Shown here piece by piece: positions 42,917-60,524 of a stretch of DNA of 60,545 bases. The DNA is from Ignisphaera sp. (GTDB lineage Archaea; Thermoproteota; Thermoprotei_A; Sulfolobales; Ignisphaeraceae), in the NCBI GenBank assembly GCA_038735125.1, contig JAVYNU010000007.1:1-60545 (forward strand), in the 5' to 3' direction. The position numbers and the translations under genes were made by a program. The notes beneath the pieces are model-generated. The model had not been told where the DNA came from. It made no database searches and saw only the letters and a program-made list of their open reading frames with translations. How positions within the stretch are numbered: position 1 is the stretch's first letter; every line of letters starts with the position of its first letter.

Positions 42917-43176
42917 TCTAGAACAGTCATGAGGATGAATATGTGGTGTCGACAAGAATAGATCGGCTAATCCCTAAAGCACTTCTCGATAAAGTCCTTT
43001 GCAAACCTTCTGCAGCAGCATATTCACCAGGGTTCTCATTGTTTTCGAGAGCTGGGGCTAATCAAGAGCGCTTTAGTATATCATCTCTAAAGCATTTATT
43101 ATCCACTGAGAGAACTTTGATATGGTGAGCGGTATGATGTACAGAGTTGCTGTGGATTATGGTGTTGTGAGAGAGG

Positions 43177-43800
43177 TTGTGGGTTTTCTATCTAGACGTA
43201 GAAACCTATAGGCCGAGAAACGAGGACATCTTTAGAAGAGAGAAAATAATTGTTATTGGCGTATTAGAGGATTGGACTCCATACAAACCAGAATCTTCAA
43301 AGATATGGGATGGGCATAGCGTAAAGTTTCATTATTTTGCTGAGTGGGAGCTTGGAGGGGAGAGAAATGTGGTTCTTCAATTCTACGATTATTTGAGAAG
43401 ACTCGTTCAAGATCAGAAGAATAATAGAATAGACTTTCTCAGTGTTATAGGCTTCAACATACTTAGATTCGATGTCCTGCTTCTCATACAGAAAGGAGTA
43501 GAATACAACGTGGAAACTCTACCAAATCTAAATGAGTTATGGCACAACACCTTCACCATAGACTACTTCCAAACATCTCTACCATTCCATAACATGAAAT
43601 TCAAGGATCTAAAACTTGAGTACCTGGTTGAGAAGGCAAGAAGCAGCGGAATAGATGTTCCAGAGCCTTTTGGCTATGGCAATGAAGTAAAAGAATGGTA
43701 TGATAATAAAGAGTATGATAAGATAATCAAACATTTAGAAATGGATTTAAAGATTGTTCGTGTCATAGATTTGAATTACAAACGTATCTATGGTATTTAA
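43177..43800 (+). CDS. DEDD-type 3'-5' exonuclease
   Basis: A 207-residue protein of the DnaQ/PolB-exonuclease superfamily. ExoI is FYLDVETY (Asp7, Glu9 region), ExoII is VIGFNILRFDVLLL, and ExoIII is HLEMDLKIV, together giving the D-E-D-D metal-binding set. There is no polymerase domain. The start is a TTG at 43177 just before WVFYLDVE, so the N-terminus may be slightly longer in life. It lies downstream of the UDG-like gene; the two could act together on damaged or foreign DNA (inference). The gap 42917-43176 holds one 61-codon frame without recognisable content. Confidence 0.75.
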   Translation: MWVFYLDVETYRPRNEDIFRREKIIVIGVLEDWTPYKPESSKIWDGHSVKFHYFAEWELGGERNVVLQFYDYLRRLVQDQKNNRIDFLSVIGFNILRFDVLLLIQKGVEYNVETLPNLNELWHNTFTIDYFQTSLPFHNMKFKDLKLEYLVEKARSSGIDVPEPFGYGNEVKEWYDNKEYDKIIKHLEMDLKIVRVIDLNYKRIYGI

Positions 43801-44030
43801 GGATTTATTGCGTGGAGTTAAGCAATTCTAGCCTTAAGTATACTAGACATCTCTCTGGTCAAGAGTTGTAGCAACTCCTATTAATTAGATTATAATGAGT
43901 TGCATGATAATTGGTGAACTGATGCTGGGTTATGGAAGCCTGCCGGTACTACCAAAAAATGCTTGCCCCTATGTGTTCCGGCTATATAATTAATGCTTTG
44001 GCATAAATCAGTTGTTGTATGTATCGAAGT

Positions 44031-45068
44031 TTACGCATAATGGTAGATTAACGAGAATATGTTTTCTGTTTTTTCATGGATATTCCTTAGCAGTCTAATG
44101 ACATCTGGTAGCGTCTTTAGCTCATCTTCTTGAACCTTTCCATACCTTACATCATTGTAATATCGGCTTAAGCAAATGTGTAGTGGAATTGACATAAACA
44201 CATCAAGGTTGTCTACCACAATGATTTTTAAGAGTTCCTCTAGTCTTTTTTCGCTTAAAGCCTTGGGCAAAGGTATCAAACCGGCTAGCTCAGCTAGTCC
44301 CGATAGCAGTTCCTTGATTTTCATTGTCACAAGTAGAGATGCTTCGTATTCTCTTAGGACTCTGTTATAAACGGTTTCAGCTTGCTCCTCCACCTTTTCA
44401 ACGAACTGTGTGGTTAGCTCGAGGCAACGCTCAGCGGTATTTATCGACTCTAAATATCTGCCAAAGATGGATTGGGCATCCATACACAAGCTTTTCCTTG
44501 TGTCGTCCATTACAATGGGTACTGGTTGCGAATAATATGAAACAATCAAATCAATTAATTTCTCAGCTGCTTCTCTCGGCATAGCCCCTTCCTCAACACC
44601 GCCTTCTATAATCCGCTCCTTACTCTTAGCTAGGCTAGTAGGTATTTGACTTAGTGTAGAATTCATGTAATCGATTAGCCTTCCCGAGCACCAGCTCTCA
44701 AATAAATTAGTGAAATCTTTTAAGAACCCCCGGAATTCGTGTCCCAGTTTTCTCGGGTCTACATAACCACTAATTCTCTTCAACAGATTGTGAACATCTC
44801 TAAACTTCTCTGATGTATTTATCTTCTCAGCAATCTCTGTAACGAAGCTTAGCTGGAGAACCCATAGATAAATAATATAGGTCTTTAGGGTCTTTTCTGA
44901 GGCCTGCTCTAAGTAGTAGAGAGCCTGTTGCTTATAATAATGGTTCTGTTTCTGCGCCTCCAGCGAATACAATATCTCAGCTATTTCTAAATCGTATTTG
45001 GCATACACAAGAAATCTTTGAGCCAATTCAATAACATTCTCTGAGCTCTCGCCCGACATAACAACCAC
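44031..45068 (-). CDS. large HEPN-like helical protein
   Basis: A 345-residue, all-helical protein. The N-terminal 75 residues resemble a HEPN domain (VYAKYDLEIAEILYSLEAQK, then QALYYLEQASEKTLKTYIIY). The remaining 270 residues are helical, with no recognisable family. HEPN proteins of this size occur in abortive-infection systems. It is a lone gene on the minus strand, at the left edge of the defence island. Confidence 0.55.
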   Translation of the reverse strand: MVVMSGESSENVIELAQRFLVYAKYDLEIAEILYSLEAQKQNHYYKQQALYYLEQASEKTLKTYIIYLWVLQLSFVTEIAEKINTSEKFRDVHNLLKRISGYVDPRKLGHEFRGFLKDFTNLFESWCSGRLIDYMNSTLSQIPTSLAKSKERIIEGGVEEGAMPREAAEKLIDLIVSYYSQPVPIVMDDTRKSLCMDAQSIFGRYLESINTAERCLELTTQFVEKVEEQAETVYNRVLREYEASLLVTMKIKELLSGLAELAGLIPLPKALSEKRLEELLKIIVVDNLDVFMSIPLHICLSRYYNDVRYGKVQEDELKTLPDVIRLLRNIHEKTENIFSLIYHYA

Positions 45069-45690
45069 TTCAAAGCCATTCTATTTTCACCTGGTTTGCA
45101 AAACAACATATATAGCTAATTCTCTCAATTCTTTAGGAGCTTTTCATCACCTAGATTGTTACAAGATTCTGCAAGCAATACAAAAACAAAATACTTTGAT
45201 GTAGTAGCAAATGCTCTTTGAAAAGAGATGTCCTAGCAAGTAAGACATGTTTTGTAGGGCTCTAGCAAATTTGTCAATTGCCTCAGGGAGTGAGATAAGT
45301 GTTGTTACCTGGATATAAGAGTTGCCATTGCCTCCATTAGCCTATCCCACCCCAATTTTCCAGTCATAATATAGCTTGGCATATACCGCTACTTATGTAT
45401 TAAGTGCATTAAAGGGTTCATCGAAGAAAGAGTTAAAACATCAAAGTGCTTAGAATTCCTAAGACCAACAAAGAATGACTCACCAGCTATGTCTAACAGT
45501 CTTTGTTGGAGATCCAAAATATCATAGAATAGATATGAAAAGCGACATCTTAAAACGTTATTGCCGGGATAGATACCTTTATTTACTCTGTTCATAGCAG
45601 ATTTTATAACAGGCGCTGAAGAGTCTATGTCTACATTAGCTGTAACTAGTGTTGGAAGATGCTATAGAACAGAAGAAAAGGTGTGGGAAC
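45069..45690. other. divergent intergenic region, no gene seen
   Basis: A 622-bp AT-rich region at the left edge of the defence island. It holds promoters for the HEPN-like gene and for the zinc-ribbon/methyltransferase operon. A 68-codon minus-strand frame at 45389-45595 has no recognisable content and I do not call it. Confidence 0.4.
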
Positions 45691-45894
45691 ATGGTCAAAT
45701 GTCCGTTCTGTGGTTATGATTCAAGTGAGGAGGGGTTTAAGCTTCTCAGAAAACCGTGGAAATTTAGATTCTACACCGTCAAGAGGATTGAGTGCCCGAA
45801 GTGTCATGGAGTTTTCAATTACTATTATGGTGTGAGCCCTCGCTCAAATAAAGTTTCTGTATTTGTAATTAGAGTTAGGCCTAGGAAGAGGTGA
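45691..45894 (+). CDS. small zinc-ribbon protein
   Basis: A 67-residue protein with two Cys pairs, KCPFCGYDSS and ECPKCHGVFN, forming a zinc ribbon, and a basic tail (VRPRKR). It lies 6 bp before the methyltransferase gene and is probably its operon partner. Start ATG 45691; the frame is open to 45649. A nucleic-acid-binding accessory role is likely but unproven. Confidence 0.7.
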   Translation: MVKCPFCGYDSSEEGFKLLRKPWKFRFYTVKRIECPKCHGVFNYYYGVSPRSNKVSVFVIRVRPRKR

Positions 45895-45900
45895 ATTAGG

Positions 45901-48900
45901 GTGTCTCAGCGTATTAGTGTTCCTCAGCTAGATATTGATGATATAATGTTGTGTATTAAGAATTCTGTTCTTAGAGCCGCTACAGAGGAGGATGTTAGGG
46001 TAAGGGTTTCGTCGTGTATAGAGGAAAAGATTTTGAAGCCTCTGGGTCTTCAAAGTGTTGCTGGTAAGTATGAGTATACGTTGGTCTCTGGTGCTAGGGT
46101 TGATGCCTTATATGGGCATGTAATTGTAGAGTATAAAGCCCCTGGCAAGCTGTCCTCGGCCCACGATATTCAAAGAGCTAAGGAGCAGGTCATAAGATAC
46201 ATAAGGGATGAGGCTGGAGGCAAATCTGAGTGGTCTAGGTATCTAGGTGTAATAATAAGCGATAGAATAGCTTTTGTCAGATATGATCCTAGAAGCGATG
46301 CGTGGGTGCTGAGAGGGCCCTACGACATTAGGCGCGAGGTTGTAGTAAAGCTTGTTGAGGCTTTAAGAGGTCTCAGAAGAAAGAATTTGGATGTCAATAG
46401 TCTTGTCAGGGACTTCGGGCCCCAGTCTGAAATAGCGAGAAAAGCCATCAAGTTGCTCTACAACAAGCTTAAACAGAGCAAAAGCCCCAGAACAAAAACT
46501 CTATTCGAAGACTGGATGAGGCTCTTCAAGCAGGCAACAGGCTATAAACCAGAAGAGCTTGAGGAGTTGCCGAAGCTAGCGAGCGAGTATGGCCTTGTGG
46601 AAAGCATAGATTACGATGCACTGATATTCTCTATCCACACGTATTATGCTCTAATAATGAAGCTGTTAGCCGCTGAGATAGCATACTTGTACGGTGGAGG
46701 GAGGTTCTACAGATCCTATGTAGCCGAACTCGACGACGCATATTCTAGAGGTGGCGTTGAAGGTGTTAAAGATGTTCTAAGAGATCTTGAGAGTGGGGGT
46801 CTATTCAGAAAGCTACTCAACATCGAGAATTTCCTAGAGGGCGACTACTTCTCGTGGTATCTAGACGAACTCGATAAAGACCTAGCAGATGTTATAGCAG
46901 AGATAGCTAGAAGACTATCGGACTACGAGGTGGCCACACCCCAGCTAGAGCCCGAGTTTGCCAGGGACTTGCTGAAGAGGCTCTACCAGAACCTTGTTCC
47001 AAGCGACTTGAGGCACAGACTCGGAGAGTTCTACACACCAGACTGGCTAGCCAACTTATTACTAGATGAAATTGGTCTGAGCCTAGATAACCTGCTTAAG
47101 ATGGGTGAGGAAGACTCGCTAAAACCTCTTAGGATAAGGGTTTTGGATCCGGCATGTGGCTCAGGGACATTCCTAGTACTCTACATAAGCAGGCTTAGGA
47201 GATATGCCGAGGAGCACTACCTAACAGACCAATTATTAGATTATGTCTTAGAGAATGTTGTGGGATACGATCTTAATCCATTGGCGGTCCTCACAGCTAG
47301 AACAAACTATCTGTTGGCTATAGCAGACCTGCTTAGCTATGCCAGAGGGAAAATTGAGATACCTGTGTACCTAGCCGACTCGATAATGATTGAGAGAAGC
47401 ACGCAGCTGACCGGCGATGTGTACATACTTAGAACAGTTGTTGGAGAGTTTCAGATACCTATAAATGTTGTTGACAAGGGCTTGCTACCCGAGATACTGG
47501 CCGAAATATCCCAGGCTCTGAGGAATAGGTATAGCGTTGAGGACTTTAAGAATAGAATTAGGTATAAGTTTAAAGATGTAAGCGAAAGAGATGCTGAAAT
47601 GCTAGGAAAGTTGTTTGGGGAGTTACTCAAGCTCGAGGAAGAGGGCAAAGACGATGTATGGATCTCAATCCTGAGAAACGCCTTTGCACCAATACTTAAA
47701 GGGAAGTTCGACTACGTTGTGGGCAACCCACCATGGGTAAACTGGGAAAACCTACCAGAAAACTATAGGGAGATAAGCAAAGATTTGTGGGTTAGATACG
47801 GACTTGCCGAAATCAAAGGTAAGACAGGTTTAGGCAAAGTTAAGAGAGATCTGGCAATGCTCTTCCTAGCGAGATGCTTTGATCTATACCTCAAGGAGGG
47901 AGGCAAGCTGGGCTTCTTAATGCCATTCACAGTATTTAAAACTCAGGCAGGTGCAGGCTTCAGAGATTTCCTTGTTAGGAAGACCCGTATACACGTGATC
48001 CACGACCTTGTAACACTATATCCGTTTGAGGGGGCAGTAAACAGAACAGCTGCAATAGTTGTCGAGAAGGTGTGTAGCCTATCAGACATTAACAATGGCA
48101 GATGTCCGCAGATGGGAGAGGTATACAAGAGCAACATTAGTGAGATTAAACACATAGTATGGGCCAATACATCAAAGAAGCCTATACCAACAGACACGCC
48201 TTTAGAGGAAGTGTTAAAGGCAACACAACGGTTTGAAGCCGTAATGGCTCCTCTAATAACAAATGATCCTACCAGTCCTTGGATGCAGGTAACTCCACGA
48301 GCACTTGAAGCCATCAGAAAAATGGTTGGTAGAAGCCAGTATTATGAAGCCCACGAAGGAGTAAATGTGGCGCTAAACCAGGTATACTTTGTGAAAATAC
48401 TTGAAAAACTTCACGATGGAAAACTCAGGATCACAAATCCTCCTGAGCCAGGCCAGAAGAAAAAGGTTAAGCAAGTTGAGGTTGCCGTGGAACCAGATCT
48501 AGTATATCCGTTGATAAGAGGAAGAGACGTGAAGAAATGGTATGTAAGCTTCGAGGACAGATACATAATTGTGCCGCATGACCCTAAAACAGGCAAACCT
48601 CTTCGTGAGAGTGACTTTAAAGTAAAGTTCCCACAAACTTACGATTACTTAAATATGTATAAGAGGGAGCTGGAAGGTAGATCGGTACATAAACTGTGGG
48701 GTAAGGGAAACCCATTTTATTCCGTTTATGATATCGGCTCATATACTTTTGCACCTTATAAAGTTGTCTGGAAGGAGGTATCGGCACGTATGCAAGCTGG
48801 TGGATTTCATGTCGCTGTTGTGGAGCCTGTTGAGAGTAGGTATTTAGGTAAAAAAGTTGTCATACCTGATCATACAGTGATACTGATACCACTCTATGAT

Positions 48901-49560
48901 AGAGATGAAGCATACTATATTGCTGGAATACTAAATTCCACAATAGCAACTGTATATGGTGTCTACATGGTAGGAGGTATGCTTGAAAATATGCGCATTC
49001 CTAAATTCGATAAGTGTAACCCTAATCATCAGAAAATAGTTGAGCTTTCTATGAGAGCTCACGAGCTTGCTAGAGAGATCTATGAAAAGGGTAGAAGGGG
49101 TCTTGAGGGTGAGCTTAGAAAGGTTGAGGAGGAGCTGGATGTTGCTGTTGCTAAACTGTTTGGCATGAACGAGACTGAGCTTAGAGAGCTCAAGAAGTTG
49201 CTAGCGGTGCTCTCTGGTGAGGAGATTTCTGAGGAGGAAGAAGTTGTTATGCCGGAGAGACCCATTGTCAATGTTTTGAACACTTCTCTGCAGCCTGATG
49301 TGGGATCTTATATCGAGGTCGATGTTGTTAACCCATCGGGTGAGGAGATAGTGTTTACGTATGAGTTGCCTTGGGGTAAGGGTTCTTTCAGTATTGTAGA
49401 GGGGAGGTATAGAATTTCAACACCTCCTCTGAAGCCGGGTAAATATAAAGGTGTTCTCAAGTGGGTTTGGCGTGGTGAGGAAAACTCTTTGGATATTGTT
49501 ATAGATGTTGTAGAGTCTGCAGGTCCTAAGAGGAGGAAGACGCTCTTAGATATTGGGTGA
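45901..49560 (+). CDS. Type IIG-like restriction endonuclease/N6-adenine methyltransferase with a C-terminal beta domain
   Basis: A 1219-residue protein. The N-terminus has a nuclease-like motif (RVDALYGHVIVEYKAP: Asp68, Glu77, Lys79). A helical connector leads to LGEFYTPDWLANLL and the methyltransferase core: motif I DPACGSGTF near residue 416 and motif IV NPPW near 609. The second half (about 780-1100) is a target-recognition region, with GILNSTIATVYGVYMVGG. The final 110 residues form a beta-sandwich-like domain (RPIVNVLNTSLQPDVGSYIE, LKPGKYKGVLKWVW), unusual for this class. It would both modify and cut DNA, or only modify if the nuclease site is dead. Its stop overlaps the BrxL start. A PglX-type BREX methylase is the alternative reading. 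Confidence 0.85.
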   Translation: MSQRISVPQLDIDDIMLCIKNSVLRAATEEDVRVRVSSCIEEKILKPLGLQSVAGKYEYTLVSGARVDALYGHVIVEYKAPGKLSSAHDIQRAKEQVIRYIRDEAGGKSEWSRYLGVIISDRIAFVRYDPRSDAWVLRGPYDIRREVVVKLVEALRGLRRKNLDVNSLVRDFGPQSEIARKAIKLLYNKLKQSKSPRTKTLFEDWMRLFKQATGYKPEELEELPKLASEYGLVESIDYDALIFSIHTYYALIMKLLAAEIAYLYGGGRFYRSYVAELDDAYSRGGVEGVKDVLRDLESGGLFRKLLNIENFLEGDYFSWYLDELDKDLADVIAEIARRLSDYEVATPQLEPEFARDLLKRLYQNLVPSDLRHRLGEFYTPDWLANLLLDEIGLSLDNLLKMGEEDSLKPLRIRVLDPACGSGTFLVLYISRLRRYAEEHYLTDQLLDYVLENVVGYDLNPLAVLTARTNYLLAIADLLSYARGKIEIPVYLADSIMIERSTQLTGDVYILRTVVGEFQIPINVVDKGLLPEILAEISQALRNRYSVEDFKNRIRYKFKDVSERDAEMLGKLFGELLKLEEEGKDDVWISILRNAFAPILKGKFDYVVGNPPWVNWENLPENYREISKDLWVRYGLAEIKGKTGLGKVKRDLAMLFLARCFDLYLKEGGKLGFLMPFTVFKTQAGAGFRDFLVRKTRIHVIHDLVTLYPFEGAVNRTAAIVVEKVCSLSDINNGRCPQMGEVYKSNISEIKHIVWANTSKKPIPTDTPLEEVLKATQRFEAVMAPLITNDPTSPWMQVTPRALEAIRKMVGRSQYYEAHEGVNVALNQVYFVKILEKLHDGKLRITNPPEPGQKKKVKQVEVAVEPDLVYPLIRGRDVKKWYVSFEDRYIIVPHDPKTGKPLRESDFKVKFPQTYDYLNMYKRELEGRSVHKLWGKGNPFYSVYDIGSYTFAPYKVVWKEVSARMQAGGFHVAVVEPVESRYLGKKVVIPDHTVILIPLYDRDEAYYIAGILNSTIATVYGVYMVGGMLENMRIPKFDKCNPNHQKIVELSMRAHELAREIYEKGRRGLEGELRKVEEELDVAVAKLFGMNETELRELKKLLAVLSGEEISEEEEVVMPERPIVNVLNTSLQPDVGSYIEVDVVNPSGEEIVFTYELPWGKGSFSIVEGRYRISTPPLKPGKYKGVLKWVWRGEENSLDIVIDVVESAGPKRRKTLLDIG

Positions 49561-50977
49561 TTGTGTGAGCGAGTTGTTTAATAAGGTTAAGAGGTGTTTT
49601 GGCGATTACGCTGTTGATAAGAGGCTTGCCTATGAGCTTGAGTTAGCCAAGCTTCCTAGGTATGTGGCTGAGTTTCTAATCTCCGAGTTCATGTATGGCG
49701 GTGGTGATTGGGAAAGTAAGTTAAGAAATTTTGTTAAAGATCATTATTATGAGCCTGAGGAGAAGGAGGTTGTTAAGCACAAGTTGGTCACGGAAGGTGT
49801 TGTTAGGTTAATCGACGAGCTGAGAGTGTATGTTGATATTGAGACAGAGACTCATGTTGGTGTTATTCAGGCGCTTGATATATGGGCTCTGGTGCCTGTA
49901 GACATTGTTAATAGGAATAGGGCTACACTAACAACTGGGATGTGGGGGCTGATAACTCTCAAGAAGTCGGATATCCCCATAGAGGTTTTTGGGAGGCCTA
50001 TTTCAGTGGTTGTAGCAGACTTCAAGCCTTTTCAAGCACCTGATACAGACCCAAAGATTCTTGAGGAGGCTAGAGAGTGTTTCACACTTGATGAGTGGAT
50101 AGATGTTTTGATAAATACCATTGGTCTAGACCCCACCGTCTATAGCCCTAGGCAAAAGCTTCTCCTACTCTCACGCCTCATACCGCTAGCTGAGGGCAAT
50201 GTGAATATGGTTGAGTTTGGCCCTAGGCAAACTGGGAAGATGTATCTCTACAGAAATGTGAGCAACTATGTTAGGATAATATCTGGTGGAATCATATCAC
50301 CAGCTGTTCTATTCTACAACTTAAGAACTAGAGTTCCTGGCGAGCTAGCTGTTAAAGACGTAGTGGTCTTTGACGAGGTTAGCAAGGTTAGGTTTCAGAA
50401 CCCGGATGAGATGATGGGCAAGCTCAAAGACTATATGGAGAGCGGCCACTATGAGAGAGGCGATAAGAAGGTTGTATCTGATGCGTCGTTGGTCTTCATG
50501 GGCAATATAGCTGTTGAAATGAGTGCTGAAGGTTATGTACCAATCGAAGACTTAACCTATGTGCTACCTGAGCCCATGAGAGATTCGGCATTTATAGATA
50601 GAATCCATGGTCTGCTACCAGGCTGGGAACTGCCCAAAATCTCTCAAACCAAGTATCATCTATCTAAGGGGTATGGAATAGCCTCAGACTACTTCGCAGA
50701 AGCGTTGCATAGCATGAGAAAAGAATCTCTGGTAGGTCTAGTAGGGAAACACATAGAACTCTCAGAAAACTTCAAGATAAGAGACGAGAAGAGCTTTAAG
50801 AAAATTACAAGTGCTTTAATCAAGCTACTATTCCCACATAAATCATTTAATAAAAGCGAGCTTAAGCTGGTAGCAGATGCTGCATTAGAGTTCAGGCAGA
50901 GAGTTAGAGACTGGCTACACAAGATAGCACCAGGAGAATTCCCCAAGGAGAGACTCAACATAAGAATATATTCATAG
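49553..50977 (+). CDS. brxL: BrxL-like AAA+ ATPase (BREX), without the Lon protease domain
   Basis: A 474-residue protein. VEFGPRQTGKMYLYRNV is the Walker A region (about residues 222-230), VVVFDEVSKV is Walker B (about 274), and LKDYMESGHYERGDKKVVSD then ASLVFMGNIAV is the segment specific to BrxL. The family's ATPase lid ends at FRQRVRDWLHKIAPGEF and the protein stops there, while typical BrxL goes on about 200 residues with a Lon-like protease domain. BrxL is needed for phage restriction in BREX and forms DNA-binding rings. It overlaps the methyltransferase gene by 8 bp (TTG start), so the two act together. No PglZ, BrxC or BrxA/B is seen nearby. Confidence 0.88.
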   Translation: MGDCVSELFNKVKRCFGDYAVDKRLAYELELAKLPRYVAEFLISEFMYGGGDWESKLRNFVKDHYYEPEEKEVVKHKLVTEGVVRLIDELRVYVDIETETHVGVIQALDIWALVPVDIVNRNRATLTTGMWGLITLKKSDIPIEVFGRPISVVVADFKPFQAPDTDPKILEEARECFTLDEWIDVLINTIGLDPTVYSPRQKLLLLSRLIPLAEGNVNMVEFGPRQTGKMYLYRNVSNYVRIISGGIISPAVLFYNLRTRVPGELAVKDVVVFDEVSKVRFQNPDEMMGKLKDYMESGHYERGDKKVVSDASLVFMGNIAVEMSAEGYVPIEDLTYVLPEPMRDSAFIDRIHGLLPGWELPKISQTKYHLSKGYGIASDYFAEALHSMRKESLVGLVGKHIELSENFKIRDEKSFKKITSALIKLLFPHKSFNKSELKLVADAALEFRQRVRDWLHKIAPGEFPKERLNIRIYS

Positions 50978-51278
50978 ACAAACATAGTAAGCACCCTCAA
51001 TACCTAGTTAAAAGCATCTCTAAAGCCCTTAAATTCGTCAACTTTTAGACGCAAAACATTGAAAAACTGAGTATACAATAGAATTACCCCTCTTACCAGA
51101 TAGATAAATAAACAAGGTGCACATATAGATCTTAAGCATTTTCTTAATTGTGTTTTGTATAGCTAGAATACCTCTTACATAGGAGCATGCGTTTAATACT
51201 TTCGGCTATCTCTCACTACAATTATTGTTTATTAATGCTAAATATAATTATAATGTTGGATTTTGATGAAGGATTGCA
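50978..51278 (+). promoter_or_regulatory. intergenic region with promoter for the Argonaute module
   Basis: A 301-bp AT-rich spacer. The element AAATATAATTATAAT at about 51239-51253 lies about 26 bases from ATG 51279, the spacing expected for an archaeal TATA box with a leaderless or near-leaderless start. The Argonaute module is thus probably a separate transcription unit from the BrxL operon. Confidence 0.5.
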
Positions 51279-52154
51279 ATGGGGAAGATGTTTATGAGGA
51301 GAGGTGCTTGGTCTAAGTTTCGAGGTGGTACAATCGGTGGAAGGGGTTTTGATGACTCTGACCATTTTGCGGGTGTGCTGTGGTTTGAGTCTTTGGCTTT
51401 GGAGGAGTTGTATGGTGGTAGGGTTGGACTCTCTTTGACGCCGTATATTGGTTTATATAGGGTGGGTTTTCTTGAGGAGGTGAGGGTGTTGGCTAGGATT
51501 GCCTATGGTGGGGGTGCAAATGTTGTGAGGGGCGCTGGTGATGAGGTTGCTGTTTATCTTCTTCATTATGGGAATTATGTTAAGGTGGGGTCTTCGAGTG
51601 TGTCTAATGTTGTAGGTAGAATGTTTTCGCAGGCGCCTCTCTGTGGCATGGTTGTAACTTCTCTTATATTTAAGGAGAGGGCTAGTTCAGAGGAGGTTTT
51701 GGACAGGTATTTGGTTAGGAGGGTAAGGGGTCTGTCTGTTTTGAGAGGTGCAAATATTCGTACTAGGAGAGAGTATGTTGGTGGTTTGGTTAATAGGATT
51801 GTTAGAGGGGCTGTAGATCCTAAGACACTAATAGATGGACTGATTGGCATAGCTAATGCTATGTATGGTTTTCTATGGGATGAAGATGTGTTGCATAGGT
51901 ATGAACCGCTGTTGCCGCCATCGAGGTACTGGTTTACTATGTCGATATGTGATGAGGATATAGAGTTCCTAAAGAAGCTCAGGGCCTCTGGTACTAGATA
52001 TGGTGTTCCAAGTGGTTTAAAGCATGTAAATGAGTTGGTCAAAGGGACTTTAACTGTTCTCCACAATGCTTTGTGTGTTGTTGGCATAGAGAACAAGACG
52101 TATATAGACTATTGCGACAAGGTCTCTAGGAACATGCTCTTCGAGGTTGTTTAG
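51279..52154 (+). CDS. putative DUF2797/GIY-YIG-like protein, operon partner of Argonaute
   Basis: A 291-residue protein. The central part, VYLLHYGNYVKVGSSS (residues 92-107), then Arg114, QAP near 118 and a Glu pair at 138-139, follows the order of DUF2797 proteins and the wider GIY-YIG nuclease fold (v-Y-L...k-V-G....R...Q-g-a....E). The N-terminal 30 residues are basic and glycine-rich. The C-terminal 120 residues are helical, with no known family. It ends 2 bp before the Argonaute start, so the two are co-translated. It may be the nuclease or effector for an Argonaute that has lost its own activity. The family call is by eye and uncertain; the pairing is clear. Confidence 0.5.
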   Translation: MGKMFMRRGAWSKFRGGTIGGRGFDDSDHFAGVLWFESLALEELYGGRVGLSLTPYIGLYRVGFLEEVRVLARIAYGGGANVVRGAGDEVAVYLLHYGNYVKVGSSSVSNVVGRMFSQAPLCGMVVTSLIFKERASSEEVLDRYLVRRVRGLSVLRGANIRTRREYVGGLVNRIVRGAVDPKTLIDGLIGIANAMYGFLWDEDVLHRYEPLLPPSRYWFTMSICDEDIEFLKKLRASGTRYGVPSGLKHVNELVKGTLTVLHNALCVVGIENKTYIDYCDKVSRNMLFEVV

Positions 52155-52156
52155 AG

Positions 52157-54349
52157 ATGGATGGAGAGAAGATTTTTGTGCTAGCCTTTCCAATAACCAT
52201 TAGCAAAGCCCCCAGCACCATATACGAGTATCTGGTTCCCGAGGAATACATAGGCTTTGCACGCTCGCTGCTATACCAAGAGAATATACCGCATGCAGTA
52301 GAGAGAAGAGATGGTGTAACCGGGTTAATAGTATATGCAGCTGATGAAAGCGACAAACTAGAGAATAGAGTGGGTGGTGCTAAGAAAAAGCAGGTAAAGC
52401 AGGCAAAACTCTCACCAGACATAATCAACAGGCTTATCTCTTCGGCCATAAGAATAGCCTTCATCAACAATGGGTGGGTAAGCTCATCATCAAAGCTCTA
52501 CAACCCCGACAAATCCGAGGCCCAGCAGCTAGCCAAAGAACTTGCCCTAAGATACACTGCTGTCAGAATCGCGGTTGACGATCTAGGCAACGAGACTAAA
52601 GCTCTATTCATAGACCCAACATCAAAGATAGAGTTTATCTATAGTTTGAGGTACATCCACGAGAAGTATCCTCAGCAGGCAGAGAAAATAGACTTTGTTA
52701 AAATTATGGGAACAACAGTTTCATTCTACACTGTGAAAAGCGAGGTACCAGAAACAAACATAGAATATGGCGATGTCATAGAAAAGGCTATCGAAACAAT
52801 AAATATGTTTAGAGGCACAGAAATCGACACGTCACTTAGCAGAAAAACAGATAACATAGTCTATGTAACGCCAAAAAGCGTAAAACTCTCGACAACTCTC
52901 CAAAACAGGATACCTGGGCTACCAACCATAGGCAAAAACCGAGTGGCAATACCACTGCCAATGGAGATTCTAACACCAGTGGGATCGCTAGACAACATCG
53001 CTCTATTCGAAAAGGTTCCAATTCTCACCAAACCACCTCACGAAAGATTCAAACAAGCCTTGGAGATCCTCACCAACACCATCTTAGAAAGCGTCAACAA
53101 CGTCAAAGGTATGCAAGTCTCTATCAACACTCAAAATATTATTGAGGTTCCTCCCAGCTCCGTACACCTCACCCAAATAAAGAGCAAGTATTGGAAGTGG
53201 TACCCAAAATTCGAGGGTAACAGCAAAAGAGTGCTACTTGTGGTTACTTCACCTGGTAATTCGAAAAGGTATGATAGAAGATGTTCAATTGCAACAGATA
53301 TCATTAAATCCTTGGCGGTTAGCTGTCGTTTGCTTAGTTCTCCCAGGCTTGTACAAGAGATCATGTTTTTAGATAATCTAGAAGACATTTTGAAAGCATA
53401 CAAAGATTATGATGAGAAGTTTGCGATATTGCTATATGATAAGAGCTTGGATAAAGAGGAGATAGACGATATCATAGGCAGGTTCGAGTATAAAGCCGCT
53501 AGCCAGGGCTTCTATCCGCATGAGCTTGGAATAGAGACAGATATAGATGAAGATGATTTTAAGCGCAGGATCCCATTCAAGATCCAAAGCATTATAAAAG
53601 ACTTTGCTACAAGAATTGGTGCTATACCCAATGATCTAAACCCACCTAGCGGGCTTGAAGACGCCTATGTTGTAGGGATAGATGCGACAACAGTTTCTGT
53701 AGGAAGAAATCAGATATATTTAGGTGTTGTAGTCGTAACTGTGAAAGCCGACAACATAAAAGACTATAGTGTAGAATTCAAATACATCGACGAAAGCGAT
53801 ATAGAGGTTCTGACCACCATCGTAGAGGATATTGCTAGTAGATACAAAAAAGCGCTCATCATGGTAAACAAATCAAGTATAGAAAGGTTCCTAGAGGAAC
53901 TAGAGAAAGAAAAGCTTCAGAACCATGTAATAGTCGGTATTAGCAAGACACATTCATATTCCAGAATACTGGCCTCTGCATCGATAAAAGGCGGAGCTGA
54001 AATTAGATATGTTAACCCGCCTAGAAGCGGGGTATTCGTAGAATTGTCGCCGACATGGCTCAAAGACATAAGGATTTCTAGGTATCTTGGGGTCACAACA
54101 AACTCGATAAAGGGCGAATATGAAAAGGGTACCATAAGGCCTGTGATAGTAAATATAGCAGGCAATGCTGATCACAAAAGGGTCTTAGACTACATCCAGG
54201 ATCTAACACACTACGCCTCCATATCCACTGTCTGGCTACCATCAATACCATGGCCACTACACAAAGCAGATAAACTATGCAAAAAGCTGAACAGAATCAT
54301 AAAAGTCAGCAACAAAATACCTGACTCATCTATACTAAGAAGACTGTAA
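52157..54349 (+). CDS. prokaryotic Argonaute (long, predicted catalytically inactive PIWI)
   Basis: A 730-residue protein. The C-terminal 230 residues are a PIWI domain: YVVGIDATTVSVGRNQIYLG (first catalytic Asp at 509), LIMVNKSSIERF where active enzymes have an RDG-type Asp (about 571), KGTIRPVIVNIAGN, LTHYASI, and PSIPWPLHKADKL (about 697-706), the conserved last helix. Before it lies a MID domain (about 345-500, with LSSPRLVQEIMFLD and KAASQGFYPHEL). N and PAZ-like parts occupy the first 340 residues. Only one of four catalytic residues is clearly in place, so it likely binds guide and target without cutting. It is in operon with the DUF2797/GIY-YIG-like gene, like other inactive pAgos that recruit an effector. 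Confidence 0.8.
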   Translation: MDGEKIFVLAFPITISKAPSTIYEYLVPEEYIGFARSLLYQENIPHAVERRDGVTGLIVYAADESDKLENRVGGAKKKQVKQAKLSPDIINRLISSAIRIAFINNGWVSSSSKLYNPDKSEAQQLAKELALRYTAVRIAVDDLGNETKALFIDPTSKIEFIYSLRYIHEKYPQQAEKIDFVKIMGTTVSFYTVKSEVPETNIEYGDVIEKAIETINMFRGTEIDTSLSRKTDNIVYVTPKSVKLSTTLQNRIPGLPTIGKNRVAIPLPMEILTPVGSLDNIALFEKVPILTKPPHERFKQALEILTNTILESVNNVKGMQVSINTQNIIEVPPSSVHLTQIKSKYWKWYPKFEGNSKRVLLVVTSPGNSKRYDRRCSIATDIIKSLAVSCRLLSSPRLVQEIMFLDNLEDILKAYKDYDEKFAILLYDKSLDKEEIDDIIGRFEYKAASQGFYPHELGIETDIDEDDFKRRIPFKIQSIIKDFATRIGAIPNDLNPPSGLEDAYVVGIDATTVSVGRNQIYLGVVVVTVKADNIKDYSVEFKYIDESDIEVLTTIVEDIASRYKKALIMVNKSSIERFLEELEKEKLQNHVIVGISKTHSYSRILASASIKGGAEIRYVNPPRSGVFVELSPTWLKDIRISRYLGVTTNSIKGEYEKGTIRPVIVNIAGNADHKRVLDYIQDLTHYASISTVWLPSIPWPLHKADKLCKKLNRIIKVSNKIPDSSILRRL

Positions 54350-54610
54350 AACACCAATATACAATCCTCAAGACAAAAAGCATATCAATTGATGGCACCA
54401 ATCTTATCTGTTGCAATTCAATTCGCATCAAAAACTAGGCTTTAGTAAGCGTAATTTCTAAGAGTATGGCACTAGACAGCAAATCCATAAAATAATGTGC
54501 TGTATCTGGAACCTAGTTAGCAGCTATAAGTTCTTCTGTGTATAGAGTAGCTGATGTGAGAGAAATGTTTATTTGTATGCTGTGAAAGTTTGCTGTGTGG
54601 GGGTGTTTGT

Positions 54611-55060
54611 ATGGCTAGGTACTGGATTGTTGTTGTGTCTGAAGAGAACTGGAATGTTGTCAAGAATGTGAATGTGTATGGGGCTCCGGAGCAGGGGGGA
54701 TCTAGATCAATCGACAAGCTGGTCTCTGTAGGCGACTACCTGATCTTCTACGTCTCGAAGAGGGGGTCTAGGAGTCTTGGCGGAAAGTTTGTGGGTGTAT
54801 ACAGAGTGGCGTCAACATGGTTTAGAGAGGAGAGGCCTCTGTGGCCAGATGAGATTAGAGAGAACAGAGTTAAGTACCCGCTGAGGGTTAGGATAGAGCC
54901 AGTTAAAATCGGTGTGGCAAGCTTCGACGAACTCGCCCCAAAACTCAGCTTCATAAAGAACAAGAGCAGGCCAAACGCATACCTCGTGGGAACCCCAGCC
55001 AATCTGAGAAGACCCATACCAGAAGAAGATGCGAAGATAATCATAGACTCTCTGGCTTAG
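54611..55060 (+). CDS. EVE-domain protein
   Basis: A 149-residue protein of the EVE (PUA-like) family: MARYWIVVVSEENWNVVKN, then VSVGDYLIFYVSKRGSRSLGG, FVGVYRVAS, and RRPIPEEDAKIIID. EVE domains read modified bases in DNA and are often linked to methyltransferases and restriction systems. That fits its place between the methyltransferase/Argonaute genes and the DISARM-like genes. Start ATG 54611, after a short AT-rich region; the spacer 54350-54610 holds nothing else. Confidence 0.85.
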   Translation: MARYWIVVVSEENWNVVKNVNVYGAPEQGGSRSIDKLVSVGDYLIFYVSKRGSRSLGGKFVGVYRVASTWFREERPLWPDEIRENRVKYPLRVRIEPVKIGVASFDELAPKLSFIKNKSRPNAYLVGTPANLRRPIPEEDAKIIIDSLA

Positions 55061-55208
55061 CAATAAACCGTTTTGTGTTGGTAGGCTCTACACCATCTAG
55101 AAACATATAAAAGGCTCTTTTCCTTGTCTACATACCTAGCTGCAATAGACACGTGTATCTAGAACGTCCAAGGGCTAGACATTATATATGATGTGTATAG
55201 AGCGTCCA

Positions 55209-57455
55209 CTACACCACATATTCTTTGCCACTATTCCACAGCTCATCGAATTTCCTAACATATTCACCAACCTTGGCAGGGTCTGTAATGATTTTACTCA
55301 GATTCTCTATGTTGAATGTCAGTCCAGATTTTGCGAAATTGGACGAGCCCTCGATAACAACCATATCATCTATTATTATCGCCTTTGCATGGAGGTCCTC
55401 ATTTATCCTCACCTTGATACAGCCTCCCAACCTGTTTCTTAACTCATTTACAGCTGTTCTCGAAACCCCATCATCAACAGCGTTTTTACCCAATATCACA
55501 TAGATGTTGCCCCCATTTCTGCAGAGTTCTGAAAGAGTCTCGATTATATTGTTGTCTATCGATGTATTTGATGTTATTATCCTAAGCTTTGCCCTAGCCA
55601 TTTTCAGCCACGGCAATATAATGTCTCTGATGTTTGTGCCTAGACTCAAGTCCTCCCCAGTTCTGCTATGCTGCTTAGTCAGGTACTCCACAACAGTATA
55701 GCTAACAGAAAGAGGCTCTAGAAATGGCCCTAGAGAGCACCCATCCTCGATAAACCCACAGCCAATATTCCCGTCAAATGCTGAGAACATCGATATTACC
55801 CTCTCTATAATATTGCCAAAGGCTTCGCTGAGCCTGCCTGGCACCAACTTCCTCTGTAGAATATACCTGATTGTGTATGGGTGAATTGTAACCCCATGTC
55901 TACGGTATACCTCGTACAGTAGTGAGATGAATCTGCCCAACTTATTTGCAGTGTCAGCTAGTTCCCTATCTCCTTGTGCATATTTTGCAACATTTTCTAG
56001 AAACCTCTTCAACTCGGCTACATCCCTATCATCTATACCACCCCTGCAATACTCTTCCACAATTCTAGATCCAATCAACGACTCGTTGTACAAGCTCTTC
56101 ACAATTATTTCGTATAGCCTAGATTTTTGCATCGCCAAGTGCTTTAGGTATCCCAGCCCACCAGAAACGGTTTCATACAAATATATCTTCCATTTGCCAC
56201 CATCATACAGAACCCTATATGACAGATAATCTTGGTCGAGACCCAGATCACTCCATAGCGAAGAGATTATGTTGTGGGCTATTGTGTGCACGACTATAAA
56301 TCTGTAATACTGTTTGTTTGCTTCATCAAGACTCTTCGAGTCTCTGACAAGCGTATCAAATGTTTCGGCATTGTTTGATTGTATTGTACTGTATAGACGC
56401 TTCCAAGGTGCCAAATAGTCTGGTTTCATATCGCATTTAGAATCATCACAAAGCTTGCTTTCAGACAACAAAACCTTTTTGTAGACAACCCACTTATGCT
56501 CCATCAAATCGTTTACAATTTTGTCAAGTGTAGAGGTTTCAAACTCTAGAACAATAGCATCTGTGTTTAGAATCCTTATACCTAGTGTGTATCTAAAGGA
56601 TGCAAAGTGGTATGGAATCCAACACTTCTTTGGCTGGAAAACCACCCCCTCGTAAAAAGCTAGCAGAGATAATTCGTCAACAAAATACACATATGCTAAG
56701 GGGTGAAAACCAAATGGTATAACAAACAATCTAACTCTAGACCTTTTTCTATCACCTTCCACAGTCTCTGAGTCGAGCGGCTTTACCTTAATTTGTGGAA
56801 TAACCTTATATAAACCGCTGTAAGTCTCTCTAATGCTATACAAATTCCCACTGCACCTTCCCCATATAGCAAAAGGACACACATATTTGATTGGACACGA
56901 CTCCCTATGCGATATTAAGACAAGGCCCCGAGGACAAAAACGTGGGTGTGCCAATGACTCGTAGCTGTACTCTGCTAGCAGAAACAGCCCACTGTGCTTA
57001 CTTAAAAGGTTCCTCAGCCTATGATACCCGATATAGATATAGATATCCTCTGTTAATGCCTGATACAAAATACTGTGTAGAACCACAACATAGGGCCCCT
57101 CTTTTTTGAATTGAAAAGCAGGCCAATCCACATATTCATATATATTATATCTATTGTCAACAGATATGGGAAGCTTTCTCAGTGTACTACGAAACCAGAA
57201 CCCCCATACATTTTTCTTTGGATACTCTCTTTTGAGAAGATCAATCAAATTCTTTTCGCAAACATCCCCAAAATCTTTGTAGTAAAATGCTTTGAAGCCC
57301 GTTGGAGGTAGTATAACCAATGTATAAGCATCGCTAGGCTCTTCACCAGCCCCTCCACCATGTTGCTTATAAACTATCTTAAATGGGGTAAATGTATACA
57401 ATGCTTCGAGGCCTCTCCTCTCATACCCCCTCTCATATCCGCTGCGATCCAGCAT
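55209..57455 (-). CDS. DUF1998-phospholipase D fusion (DrmB-DrmC-like)
   Basis: A 748-residue protein. The middle (about 385-460) is DUF1998, the DrmB/MrfA hallmark: VVHTIAHNIISSLWSDLGL, then YLYETVSGGLGYLKHL. Cys clusters (RESCPIKYVCPFAIWGRCSG near 200; CDDSKCD near 345; CGFIEDGC near 580) may bind zinc. The last 130 residues are a PLD nuclease-like domain with one HKD motif (LHAKAIIIDDMVVIEGSSN), as in DrmC. In DISARM these are separate genes. It is 12 bp downstream of the helicase gene on the same strand, and convergent to the EVE gene. Confidence 0.75.
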   Translation of the reverse strand: MLDRSGYERGYERRGLEALYTFTPFKIVYKQHGGGAGEEPSDAYTLVILPPTGFKAFYYKDFGDVCEKNLIDLLKREYPKKNVWGFWFRSTLRKLPISVDNRYNIYEYVDWPAFQFKKEGPYVVVLHSILYQALTEDIYIYIGYHRLRNLLSKHSGLFLLAEYSYESLAHPRFCPRGLVLISHRESCPIKYVCPFAIWGRCSGNLYSIRETYSGLYKVIPQIKVKPLDSETVEGDRKRSRVRLFVIPFGFHPLAYVYFVDELSLLAFYEGVVFQPKKCWIPYHFASFRYTLGIRILNTDAIVLEFETSTLDKIVNDLMEHKWVVYKKVLLSESKLCDDSKCDMKPDYLAPWKRLYSTIQSNNAETFDTLVRDSKSLDEANKQYYRFIVVHTIAHNIISSLWSDLGLDQDYLSYRVLYDGGKWKIYLYETVSGGLGYLKHLAMQKSRLYEIIVKSLYNESLIGSRIVEEYCRGGIDDRDVAELKRFLENVAKYAQGDRELADTANKLGRFISLLYEVYRRHGVTIHPYTIRYILQRKLVPGRLSEAFGNIIERVISMFSAFDGNIGCGFIEDGCSLGPFLEPLSVSYTVVEYLTKQHSRTGEDLSLGTNIRDIILPWLKMARAKLRIITSNTSIDNNIIETLSELCRNGGNIYVILGKNAVDDGVSRTAVNELRNRLGGCIKVRINEDLHAKAIIIDDMVVIEGSSNFAKSGLTFNIENLSKIITDPAKVGEYVRKFDELWNSGKEYVV

Positions 57456-57467
57456 AGGCGCCTTACC

Positions 57468-60400
57468 TCACAAAGGCCTAAGACCTACAGTATCTATGCT
57501 TTCCCAGGCAAAGGTTATGGGGATAATCTTAGACACTATGTTGAAGAACTCATCACGTAGAACCATATACCAACACATGCTCAGTTTAATCGCATCGATT
57601 TTATTGCACTCTTCAATATCATACCCGCTAAAATTGATGAATTCGCTTATCGCCATAAGTAATGATGCAGGGCTCTTTTCAATACTATTTCTTAATAGAT
57701 TAAAAAATGGCTCTAAGCGTTTGCGTATTCTCATTAACTCGACATTGTATATTTCTGGCAATACACATTCAACCATAATTTTATTGACTCTGTCGATGTC
57801 TGTAACAGGCATTTTACTAGGAAACATTGACATAGTTTTGCAACCTTCCAAATCTCGTTTTTTGTTAAGTTTATTATACAATTCTTGAATTAGAGAATGC
57901 AAATATGATTGAATAGATGATATGTTAACATATGAAGCACTTGAGTTTTCAAACCTAGTTACATCTTTCTCAACATCTTTCACTATATTGTATATCTCTT
58001 TTAGTACGTCCTTTGTACACTTGATTACTTCTTTCTTATTATCTTTCAAATTAATACCGTATCTCTGCAAAATGAGTTTGATTTCTTGGCTCTCTCTTAA
58101 GAATTTTAGGGGTTTCTTTTTTGCTGCTCCATATTCTTTTAATAGCTTTTTGATCTCCTTTCTAAATTCTTTCCATGTCTCTATTGGTTTTACTGCTTCT
58201 AGCTGTTCTTTAAGCATTTTCATTAGTTTAAGGAAGTCTGCTTGTGATAGTTTCTTCAGTAGCTCGTCTCTAACTCCCCATCTTCTCAGCCATAGTATAT
58301 TTTGGCTATTCAGCGACTCGGCGATGTATTGAATCATAATGTTTTTGGCTTCATCTAATCTAACCTCACCTATTTTGCCATTGAGTATAGAGCTTTTCAG
58401 CTGTTGAATAATATGATATTCTAGAACACGTTGGAGAAAGACTAGTTCAAGTGTCACTTCGTCAGGTAAAGCAACATCTTTTTTCTGTTGTGGTCTACTG
58501 AAAAACCTTTGTATTGTCACGGGGGTTAGCGTAGGTATGTAGAATGCTAGCGAGATTCTATAGGTATTTTCCTTTCTACCAGCTCTTCCGACTCTTTGTT
58601 CCAGCGCTTCATCGCTTATGGGGTCTTTGTATTGTACAATGAATGCGACGTCGTCATAGTCCATTCCCAGGTCTAGTGTCGATGTAGCTATCAATGTTTT
58701 TAGCGAGCCGGTCTCAAACTTCTTTTCAATCTCGCGCCTCTGTTCTTCGTTTAATCCGCCATGATGCAGACCTACGTGGTTGATCAATGTGCTGAGCTTT
58801 TCAATCAAATCCTTTACATATTGCATATTTGATAAATCGGTTAGATGGACCCAGCTATAATCACTGTTATCTCTTGTGAGAGCATCTCTGGGCGTCAACT
58901 TATCGTATTCGTGATTTCTACAGGAAACTTGGTTTATGTGGTCACAGAGTTCAACACCTCTTCTATACTTAAATGTTGTTGTTATGTAGTCCATTATTGT
59001 GCCTGTCTCGCTTATGCTATCAATGAATACTATGGACTTTAGCCTTCTGCCCATCTGTATTAGGAGTAGGAGCTGTATAATCCCATGCAACATTGTTTCA
59101 ATACTTCGTCTATATGGAAGCAGTGTAACAATAATCTTAAGTCTACGTTGCTCCTCATGCCTTGGCTCAAGCTCCTCATAGTCTAGACTTTCAACAGACT
59201 GTTTGCTTACACCAAACATCCATCTAACAAGGTCTTCAACATCTGATAGTGGGATAGTGGCAGATGATGTTATAACAAGAGGTTCTTCATCATAGATTTT
59301 ACGTAATTGAATAAGTAATCTAAGTATTGCTGTTAGTGGTACGTAGTTCACGTTTATGTAAACATGCGCTTCATCCAATATTACGACTCCACACCCTCTA
59401 TATAGTTGCTGGTATTCGCTTTTTGGATGCAACAAACGCTGTTCAACAGTCCAAGGATTGGAGATTAGTATGTCCGGCTTTTTAAATGCTACCTCATCCC
59501 TATCTTCCTTGGTATACACTATTCCTACAAGAAAATCCAGCGGCTTATTATCCGAGCATTCATATCTTATAGCGAAATTGTTTTTATATAGTGCACGTAT
59601 TGTTAGCTTATCGTTTTCTGGGCATGGAATTCCCGTGTCTATATATTTCCCCTCTAAAAGAGGTTCTAATCCATATCTAACCCCGCTGTCAACAGCCAAG
59701 GTTACCGTGTATCGTTGGAGCCCAAGCTCTTTAAGTTTATTATTTATGAAGTAAAGGGGTTTTACCAGTCTCCCCAACTGCTGCTTTTGAAGAGCCCTCC
59801 TTGGATATACTATTAGAACCCTATTTTGATTTCCTCGATATTTGAATAAAAGTGAATGGGCTATTGCAACAATTTGGAATACCAAGGTCTTGCCTGTAGC
59901 TGTTGGCGCTGATATGACGAAGTATCTCCTCTCTTTTGATGCCATCAAAATTCTTTCTATGGCCTTCAGCTGCCACTCAGCCAGTTTCTGATACCCGCTT
60001 CTATGAAGCCCCTCTACAATGGCTTCGCAAAACCTCTCTGCAATGTCTTTTTTCACACCATTATCTATGAAGAACCTCGCCAAAACATTCTTCAGATCTG
60101 AAGAAACACTTCTAGCCCCAAAATCAGGTGCATACTCATACTCAATATCTATGTTGAAACCTCCAACCCACCTCCCATTCAAATCATCCTCATAAGCTCT
60201 GCCCCTCAAAACCCTAAACACCAAATCCCCATGCAAAGTAGTGTAAATAGTAGCGCCATCCACCTTGCCAAGCTCAACTAGCATACCATCACTGATAAGC
60301 CTACCCAAAACATTTTGATCCACCTGAGTCTTAGGAACCACCCGAATCTCATAGCCCATGACACTATGAGAAAAAACTCTTTCTTTACACGACGGCCCAA

Positions 60401-60524
60401 AACAGAAAACAACATACCTCAACAATCCTTGTGTCTTAGAAGACTCCATCTCTTTAAGCTGCTCTTCAACAAGCTTTTGATAGAAAAGCATATGTGATAA
60501 TTGACTCGTTAGCTTCACCCTCAA
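57468..60524 (-). CDS. DISARM/MrfA-like superfamily 2 helicase (DrmA-like)
   Basis: A protein of about 1018 residues. An N-terminal 190-residue domain precedes the helicase core: Walker A APTATGKT (about 204-211), DEAH in VVILDEAHVY (about 380), SSAT, and motif VI in ALEQRVGRAGRK (about 640). From about 680 on it is helical with a coiled coil (LKEQLEAVKPIETWKEFRKE). It pairs with the DUF1998-PLD gene, so it resembles a split MrfA or the DrmA helicase. The exact start is uncertain: TTG 60524, GTG 60518 or ATG 60491. A TATA-like TTTTAAAA at 60531-60538 lies just upstream. Confidence 0.75.
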   Translation of the reverse strand: MRVKLTSQLSHMLFYQKLVEEQLKEMESSKTQGLLRYVVFCFGPSCKERVFSHSVMGYEIRVVPKTQVDQNVLGRLISDGMLVELGKVDGATIYTTLHGDLVFRVLRGRAYEDDLNGRWVGGFNIDIEYEYAPDFGARSVSSDLKNVLARFFIDNGVKKDIAERFCEAIVEGLHRSGYQKLAEWQLKAIERILMASKERRYFVISAPTATGKTLVFQIVAIAHSLLFKYRGNQNRVLIVYPRRALQKQQLGRLVKPLYFINNKLKELGLQRYTVTLAVDSGVRYGLEPLLEGKYIDTGIPCPENDKLTIRALYKNNFAIRYECSDNKPLDFLVGIVYTKEDRDEVAFKKPDILISNPWTVEQRLLHPKSEYQQLYRGCGVVILDEAHVYINVNYVPLTAILRLLIQLRKIYDEEPLVITSSATIPLSDVEDLVRWMFGVSKQSVESLDYEELEPRHEEQRRLKIIVTLLPYRRSIETMLHGIIQLLLLIQMGRRLKSIVFIDSISETGTIMDYITTTFKYRRGVELCDHINQVSCRNHEYDKLTPRDALTRDNSDYSWVHLTDLSNMQYVKDLIEKLSTLINHVGLHHGGLNEEQRREIEKKFETGSLKTLIATSTLDLGMDYDDVAFIVQYKDPISDEALEQRVGRAGRKENTYRISLAFYIPTLTPVTIQRFFSRPQQKKDVALPDEVTLELVFLQRVLEYHIIQQLKSSILNGKIGEVRLDEAKNIMIQYIAESLNSQNILWLRRWGVRDELLKKLSQADFLKLMKMLKEQLEAVKPIETWKEFRKEIKKLLKEYGAAKKKPLKFLRESQEIKLILQRYGINLKDNKKEVIKCTKDVLKEIYNIVKDVEKDVTRFENSSASYVNISSIQSYLHSLIQELYNKLNKKRDLEGCKTMSMFPSKMPVTDIDRVNKIMVECVLPEIYNVELMRIRKRLEPFFNLLRNSIEKSPASLLMAISEFINFSGYDIEECNKIDAIKLSMCWYMVLRDEFFNIVSKIIPITFAWESIDTVGLRPL

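Follow-up and report, generated by a model that had tools for sequence, protein, structure and literature searches.

Two adjacent genes in the stretch of Ignisphaera sp. DNA analysed here (60,545 nucleotides; hereafter, the window) probably encode a DISARM-like antiviral helicase–nuclease, which would represent a sister lineage of DISARM within Thermoproteota; a role in defence is suggested by the kinship of the two proteins and by the genes found beside their relatives. Directly observed are the genes themselves, their domains and motifs, their recurrence across the phylum, their phylogenetic neighbourhood, and the absence of the methyltransferase that accompanies most members of the family; formation of a complex, DNA cutting, and defence are inferred.

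A Helicase and a DUF1998–PLD Fusion Protein Encoded Side by Side

The module consists of two intact open reading frames with the following features:

57468..60524, minus strand: helicase gene, 1018 aa, TTG start; YprA/DrmA-like SF2 helicase, intact ORF
58467..60083, minus strand: helicase core including the RecA1 insertion before DEAH, approximately residues 148-686 (profile match)
59886..59909, minus strand: Walker A motif APTATGKT of the helicase (motif alignment)
55209..57455, minus strand: fusion gene, 748 aa; DrmB-like DUF1998 region and PLD nuclease domain, intact ORF
55668..56771, minus strand: DrmB-like CON/DUF1998 region, residues 229-596 (VIA-align to 7s9v_B, Z 12.2; family alignment)
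55221..55628, minus strand: PLD nuclease domain with a single HKD, residues 610-745 (Pfam PLDc_2; NucT/Nuc fold matches)
55338..55391, minus strand: HKD catalytic motif LHAKAIIIDD...GSSN (alignment)

Both genes lie on the same strand, separated by 12 nt, with the fusion gene downstream. The helicase contains DEAD (1.7e-19) and Helicase_C (7.1e-14) domains according to Pfam, and all core motifs are present, namely Walker A, DEAH, SAT, and QRVGRAGR. Among solved structures, its closest sequence match is MrfA/YprA (1.2e-12). A predicted structure of middling confidence (mean pLDDT 66.3) also gave MrfA as the top match (Z 16.6 over 436 residues), while DrmA (7s9w_A) was matched with a Z score of 14.2 over 516 residues.

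In the fusion protein, the PLD domain is readily recognized (PLDc_2, 3.9e-17, residues 617-740), and the corresponding part of an AlphaFold2 model, again of middling confidence (mean pLDDT 64.6), resembles the nucleases NucT (Z 18.0) and Nuc (Z 17.6). The Pfam match to MZB/DUF1998 is sub-threshold (E=0.019, 16.1 bits versus a cut-off of 24.2, residues 393-440), and the DUF1998 assignment is therefore based on the family alignment, in which an HTxAH...E..GG motif is apparent and other members keep the sequence CWDGCxxC...GC, together with the predicted structure. Residues 229-596 of the model superimpose on the DrmB chain of the solved DrmAB complex (7s9v_B) with a Z score of 12.2 over 224 residues and an rmsd of 4.0. 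MrfA is not among the best 50 fold matches listed for the fusion protein, which excludes nothing. When profiles of the fusion family and of true DrmB proteins were compared, the matches were weak, with probabilities of 66.6 for one archaeal DrmB and 1.0 and 7.2 for two bacterial ones.

Recurrence of the Module in Thermoproteota

The search for relatives covered 147 genomes with single-protein queries and 398 genomes of the phylum with profiles; G000 denotes the genome of the window, and G005 its close sister MAG. Fifteen fused loci were found. Thirteen of these comprise two genes (G000, G005, G006, G081, G130, G139, G053, G260, G472, G262, G302, G209, and G115), in which the order from helicase to DUF1998–PLD protein is constant and the gaps range from -35 to +12 nt. 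At the other two, a single gene encodes helicase, DUF1998, and PLD regions together, yielding proteins of 1593 aa in G200 (L205 6510-11291) and 1677 aa in G096 (L207 8392-13425); the PLD of the latter looks degenerate and was recognized only by eye, having been missed by the profile. Recurrence in the same order at 13 loci and as one gene at two indicates that the pairing did not arise by chance. The initial annotation, which had described DUF1998 and PLD as parts of one protein next to a separate DrmA/MrfA-like helicase, is borne out by Pfam, alignment, fold, and this recurrence (n=15).

Other arrangements occur as well. G067 encodes helicase, DUF1998, and PLD as three separate genes, and at seven loci (G051, G047, G113, G375, G183, a second locus in G260, and G287) a module-clade helicase adjoins a DUF1998-like neighbour with no PLD match in the fetched stretch, the second gene in G051 and G287 being assigned by position only. 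At E<=1e-45, the helicase was matched at 17 places in 15 of the 398 genomes: 12 fused loci, two without PLD, a contig fragment (G472:C194), one locus whose visible surroundings contain no DUF1998 gene (G019), and one that is BRIGADE-like (G358). A 5.9 kb fragment, G104, was excluded from trees and counts.

In viral contigs, neither the Sulfolobales-type fusion protein nor the window helicase had a relative. Plasmids searched with the G260 fusion protein gave only two Dietzia PLD matches, and a scan of genome contigs gave, apart from the sister MAG, a single weak match confined to PLD.

The Helicase Probably Groups beside DISARM DrmA

Trees were built from module helicases, MrfA (7 rows), DISARM DrmA, BRIGADE helicases, and a RecQ outgroup; they contain no Druantia, ARMADA, or Dpd sequences. 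One of two Natronorubrum BRIGADE helicases and the row x_G184 were dropped after the first tree and are missing from the second and third. The G302 helicase, which derives from an over-long ORF, was shortened by 96 N-terminal residues. In the 37-row tree, the module helicases form one clade (100/99) and DISARM DrmA another (96/92), and the two are joined with support of 92/94. Adding nine rows gave 98 SH-aLRT for the joint group and 82 for the DISARM clade, in a third tree of the "quick" kind that has no bootstraps and for which one-gene proteins were trimmed to their first 1000/1050 residues. BRIGADE rows fall outside the group of module and DISARM helicases. Forcing the module helicases together with MrfA cost 19.8 log units in an AU test (p 0.057), a placement that is disfavoured and not rejected. 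The phylogeny against DrmA and MrfA proposed in the initial annotation sets the helicase beside DISARM DrmA and apart from MrfA.

Within the module clade, the rows lacking PLD group together in a nested clade (99) to which G067 is adjacent (85). This topology would fit loss of an ancestral fusion, with the branching order inside the module clade being weak.

A character outside the tree agrees with this placement near DISARM. The segment between GDT/GDS and DEAH, which measures the RecA1 insertion, spans 94–129 aa in 16/16 module-clade rows, 145–202 aa in DISARM, and 120–125 aa in BRIGADE, compared with 53 aa in 7/7 MrfA rows. Zinc modules inserted into RecA1 of DISARM and Dpd helicases are described in PMC12458937, and CxxC pairs lie inside the RecA1 insertion of several module helicases.

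These data bear on a reading in which the pair is an MrfA-like repair helicase that has been divided and has gained a nuclease, serving DNA repair and not defence. The rank of MrfA as the top solved-structure match and the AU value speak for such a role, as does the window genome, which contains no MZB gene above the Pfam cut-off and in which the module could consequently fill that position. The tree and the RecA1 insertion, missing from all seven MrfA proteins, point the other way; moreover, the sparse spread of the helicase, including one BRIGADE-like case, and its methylase and Hma neighbours (see below) are unlike those of a housekeeping repair gene, and G081 has a separate MrfA-type gene in addition to the module. 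A repair function is considered quite unlikely on these grounds.

Methyltransferases and Other Neighbours of the Module

At 12 of the 15 fused loci, a DNA methyltransferase that matches a single profile is located no more than 4 kb away, directly adjacent in nine (G006, G081, G130, G053, G260, G472, G262, G302, and G200) and one gene away in three (G209, G115, and G096). In the relatives it is an N4/N6-type enzyme. It is important to note that the profile, A5, was built from module-adjacent genes, such that its seven strongest phylum genomes do not constitute independent proof. Weaker matches outside the profile's own rows were obtained for G115, G200, and G096 (6e-25 to 8e-34) and for G209 (8e-22). 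When the methyltransferase alone was searched for in non-training genomes, two of seven hits (G375 and G183, the two best by full-length match) were accompanied by a module-type helicase and a DUF1998 gene; no module-type helicase adjoins the remaining five (G402, G191, G291, G241, and G208).

The family methyltransferase was not found in the whole genomes of G000, G005, and G139 at E<=1e-6, with PF01555, PF02384, and PF07669 lying outside the search. The earlier statement that no dedicated methylase is present on the same strand is thus correct for the window, but it does not extend to the family. At the G139 locus (C211:35375-42956; L029, L065), helicase and fusion genes are accompanied by a 298-aa unknown gene and, two genes downstream, by a DndC-like PAPS-reductase-type protein (PADLOC 9e-43); phosphorothioation in place of methylation is possible in this genome.

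Genes of the Hma type, encoding a DUF1156 methylase, a DUF499 ATPase, and an SNF2 helicase with NOV_C, are found beside 5 of the 15 fused loci: L059 3605-14917 (G006), L062 (G130), L108 (G209), L106 (G262), and, in part, L060 (G081).

The window itself contains another methyltransferase in a conserved trio on the plus strand (45649-50977), composed of an 81-aa zinc-ribbon-like gene, a type IIG restriction–methylation enzyme at 45901 (PADLOC 1284 bits), and BrxL, in that order. Near copies of the trio occur in G005 (C4:249100-254412) and G200 (C4:23050-28416), with identities of 63-66% for the IIG enzyme and 57-80% for BrxL. The initial annotation had suggested that a variant DISARM borrows this enzyme for self-marking. 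Proximity favours the proposal, as the IIG gene lies ~6 kb from the module in the window and in G005 and ~7 kb away in the distant genome G200, and neither G000 nor G005 has the usual methyltransferase anywhere in its genome. Co-localization is seen in two lineages, window/G005 and G200, but co-occurrence elsewhere does not support borrowing. Among 145 relatives, nine contain the IIG enzyme, two together with the module and seven without it; among 19 other module-clade genomes only three have it, the remaining 16 being without it at E<=1e-30. The copy on C4 gives G005 a second IIG–BrxL pair, on another contig and with no module gene within the fetched 19 kb. G200, a counter-example in which the two co-localize, carries its own methyltransferase beside the module, and G139 has neither enzyme. 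Based on its occurrence in genomes without the module, the second G005 pair, and the low count within the module clade, the gene at 45901 is assigned to a separate cassette, which renders borrowing distinctly improbable.

Additional genes surround the module in the window. On the plus strand, positions 51279-54349 encode a 291-aa protein with no Pfam, PADLOC, or NCBIfam match, followed by a 730-aa PIWI/argonaute-like protein (PADLOC PprPIWI, 2.2e-8), and an EVE-domain gene (54590-55060, 2.1e-13) is convergent with the fusion gene. In G472, a related EVE gene (3.3e-16) adjoins the module; PMC12458937 reports that class 1 DrmA carries EVE-like domains at its N-terminus. A 345-aa protein on the minus strand (44031-45068) shows a weak HEPN signal (0.099) and corresponds to two ORFs in G005. 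The window has no tRNA and no Rfam match.

Conservation of the Module in the Window Lineage

In the window fusion protein, the catalytic H and K and the GSxN motif of the PLD domain are intact, and of the 12 fusion proteins aligned, 11 keep H and K of the HKD motif. The exception is the sister MAG (L003 10001-12241), where LRAK and DPFD replace LHAK and GSSN, so that the HKD histidine and GSxN appear to be lost; both genomes are drafts, and the loss is provisional on that account. The flanking genes in G005 are 98-100% identical to those of the window, with the IIG, BrxL, and 291-aa genes being identical, compared with 95.0% DNA identity for the fusion gene. The differences cluster at its 3' end, in the C-terminal part of the protein, perhaps representing a mosaic block produced by recombination. 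The apparent loss of the motif in G005 indicates that constraint on nuclease activity is uneven.

The zinc cysteine cluster varies across the family. In the window protein it is reduced to SAFDGNIGC...GC, and the alignment shows reduced clusters also in G005, G006, G139, and G053, while the full cluster (CxDGCxxC...C; CMDAC in G262) is retained in G081, G130, G260, G472, G302, G262, and G209.

Taken together with the missing methyltransferase in G000 and G005, the diminished cluster and the G005 substitutions, which are predominantly C-terminal and include the LRAK and DPFD changes, could indicate a decaying remnant that has lost the methyltransferase along with some of its zinc cysteines and whose nuclease is drifting. 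Against this stand the intact ORFs of the window, with all helicase and HKD motifs preserved, pairwise dN/dS values of ~0.18 for the helicase and ~0.31 for the fusion gene, and the retention of both genes and the HKD motif in G006 at 46-47% identity. Decay is consequently judged unlikely.

A Model for a Tethered Helicase–Nuclease

Based on the comparative data, a simple model for the DISARM-like module would have the helicase, in the role of DrmA, and the DUF1998 part, in that of DrmB, form one translocating complex that loads onto single-stranded or forked invading DNA. The PLD domain is covalently tied to the DrmB part, so that a tethered nuclease, probably working as a dimer of PLD domains, would cut the DNA that the helicase moves. 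Self DNA may be marked, in most relatives, by the adjacent DNA methyltransferase; in the methyltransferase-free window lineage, the choice between self and non-self would depend on DNA structure or on another methylase. Recognition of ssDNA overhangs by DrmAB, and a DrmC that does not co-purify with DrmAB, are reported in PMC9142583.

More tentatively, the clade may represent an undescribed YprA-family defence lineage as old as DISARM, whose ancestral form combined helicase, DUF1998–PLD protein, and methyltransferase. The single-gene protein of G200 would then show that PLD belongs to a DrmAB-type complex, and the window form would be methylase-free, discriminating self from non-self by DNA structure alone. 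This broader proposal is conceivable and, at present, somewhat doubtful.

The recurrent fusion of PLD to a DrmB-like partner, and in two genomes to the helicase as well, argues for joint action of nuclease and helicase as a unit, and the arrangement may show how such helicases obtain their nuclease. A compact enzyme from heat-loving archaea is thereby offered for testing this unity, and with a methylase-free form, self-recognition in the absence of methylation could be tested directly. The family, likely a defensive one, is missed by PADLOC and NCBIfam models. According to PMC12988326, RM, CRISPR, and argonautes make up most of the defence repertoire known from this phylum, with few other systems. 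No DrmB–PLD fusion in archaea was found among the titles and abstract openings of the literature; the clade may stand in the supplementary tables of PMC12458937.

Comparison with Known Systems

PADLOC Hma (HmaA, HmaB, HmaC) is linked to the module through related genes that adjoin 5/15 fused loci, but it is an operon of its own and was not seen in the window. ARMADA and Druantia III share the logic of helicase, DUF1998, and nuclease; they differ in being one-protein helicases with other inserted domains. PLD domains at the helicase C-terminus of Druantia III are noted in PMC12458937.

Dpd and BRIGADE likewise combine a YprA-type helicase bearing a RecA1 insertion with a PLD nuclease, and DpdK is the best PADLOC and NCBIfam match of the window PLD domain. 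In contrast to the module, their helicase and DUF1998 regions form one protein and are accompanied by 7-deazaguanine genes. No Dpd 7-deazaguanine modification gene, and no DrmD or DrmE, is among the PADLOC matches listed for ten proteins of 42233-60524 (the best 25 of ~60 for two of them). BRIGADE is further set apart by its position outside the group of DISARM and module helicases.

MrfA/YprA has an SF2 core fold and a DUF1998 part in common with the module, but it is a single protein with core, MZB, and an intact Cys4, has neither RecA1 insertion nor PLD, and occupies another clade. The window genes, by comparison, are separate ORFs with an MZB score of 16.1 versus 24.2 bits and a reduced cysteine cluster.

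DISARM consists of DrmA, DrmB, DrmC, DrmMI/DrmMII, and DrmD (class 1) or DrmE (class 2), with the PLD nuclease DrmC present in many, not all, operons. The module resembles it in encoding the helicase and the DUF1998 part as separate adjacent genes, in its PLD nuclease and DrmB fold match, in the sister relationship of its helicase clade to DrmA, and in the methyltransferase of most relatives. The differences are that PLD is fused to the DUF1998 protein and not an independent gene like DrmC, that the helicase is sister to the DrmA clade and not within it, and that the methyltransferase derives from another family and is missing in the window, where no DrmMI/DrmMII lies beside the module. Neither window protein reaches a curated DISARM cut-off (DrmC_I, 19.1 vs 133 bits). 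The fused nuclease, the lack of DrmM, DrmD, and DrmE, the helicase beside the DrmA clade, and these scores are the reasons for the designation DISARM-like instead of DISARM. The term variant DISARM used in the initial annotation is accordingly too narrow, as the helicases form a clade beside DISARM and several defining features fail, but the kinship itself is supported: the tree, the RecA1 insertion, and the methyltransferase and Hma neighbours ally the module with DISARM, as a clade beside it, and not with a repair-only MrfA.
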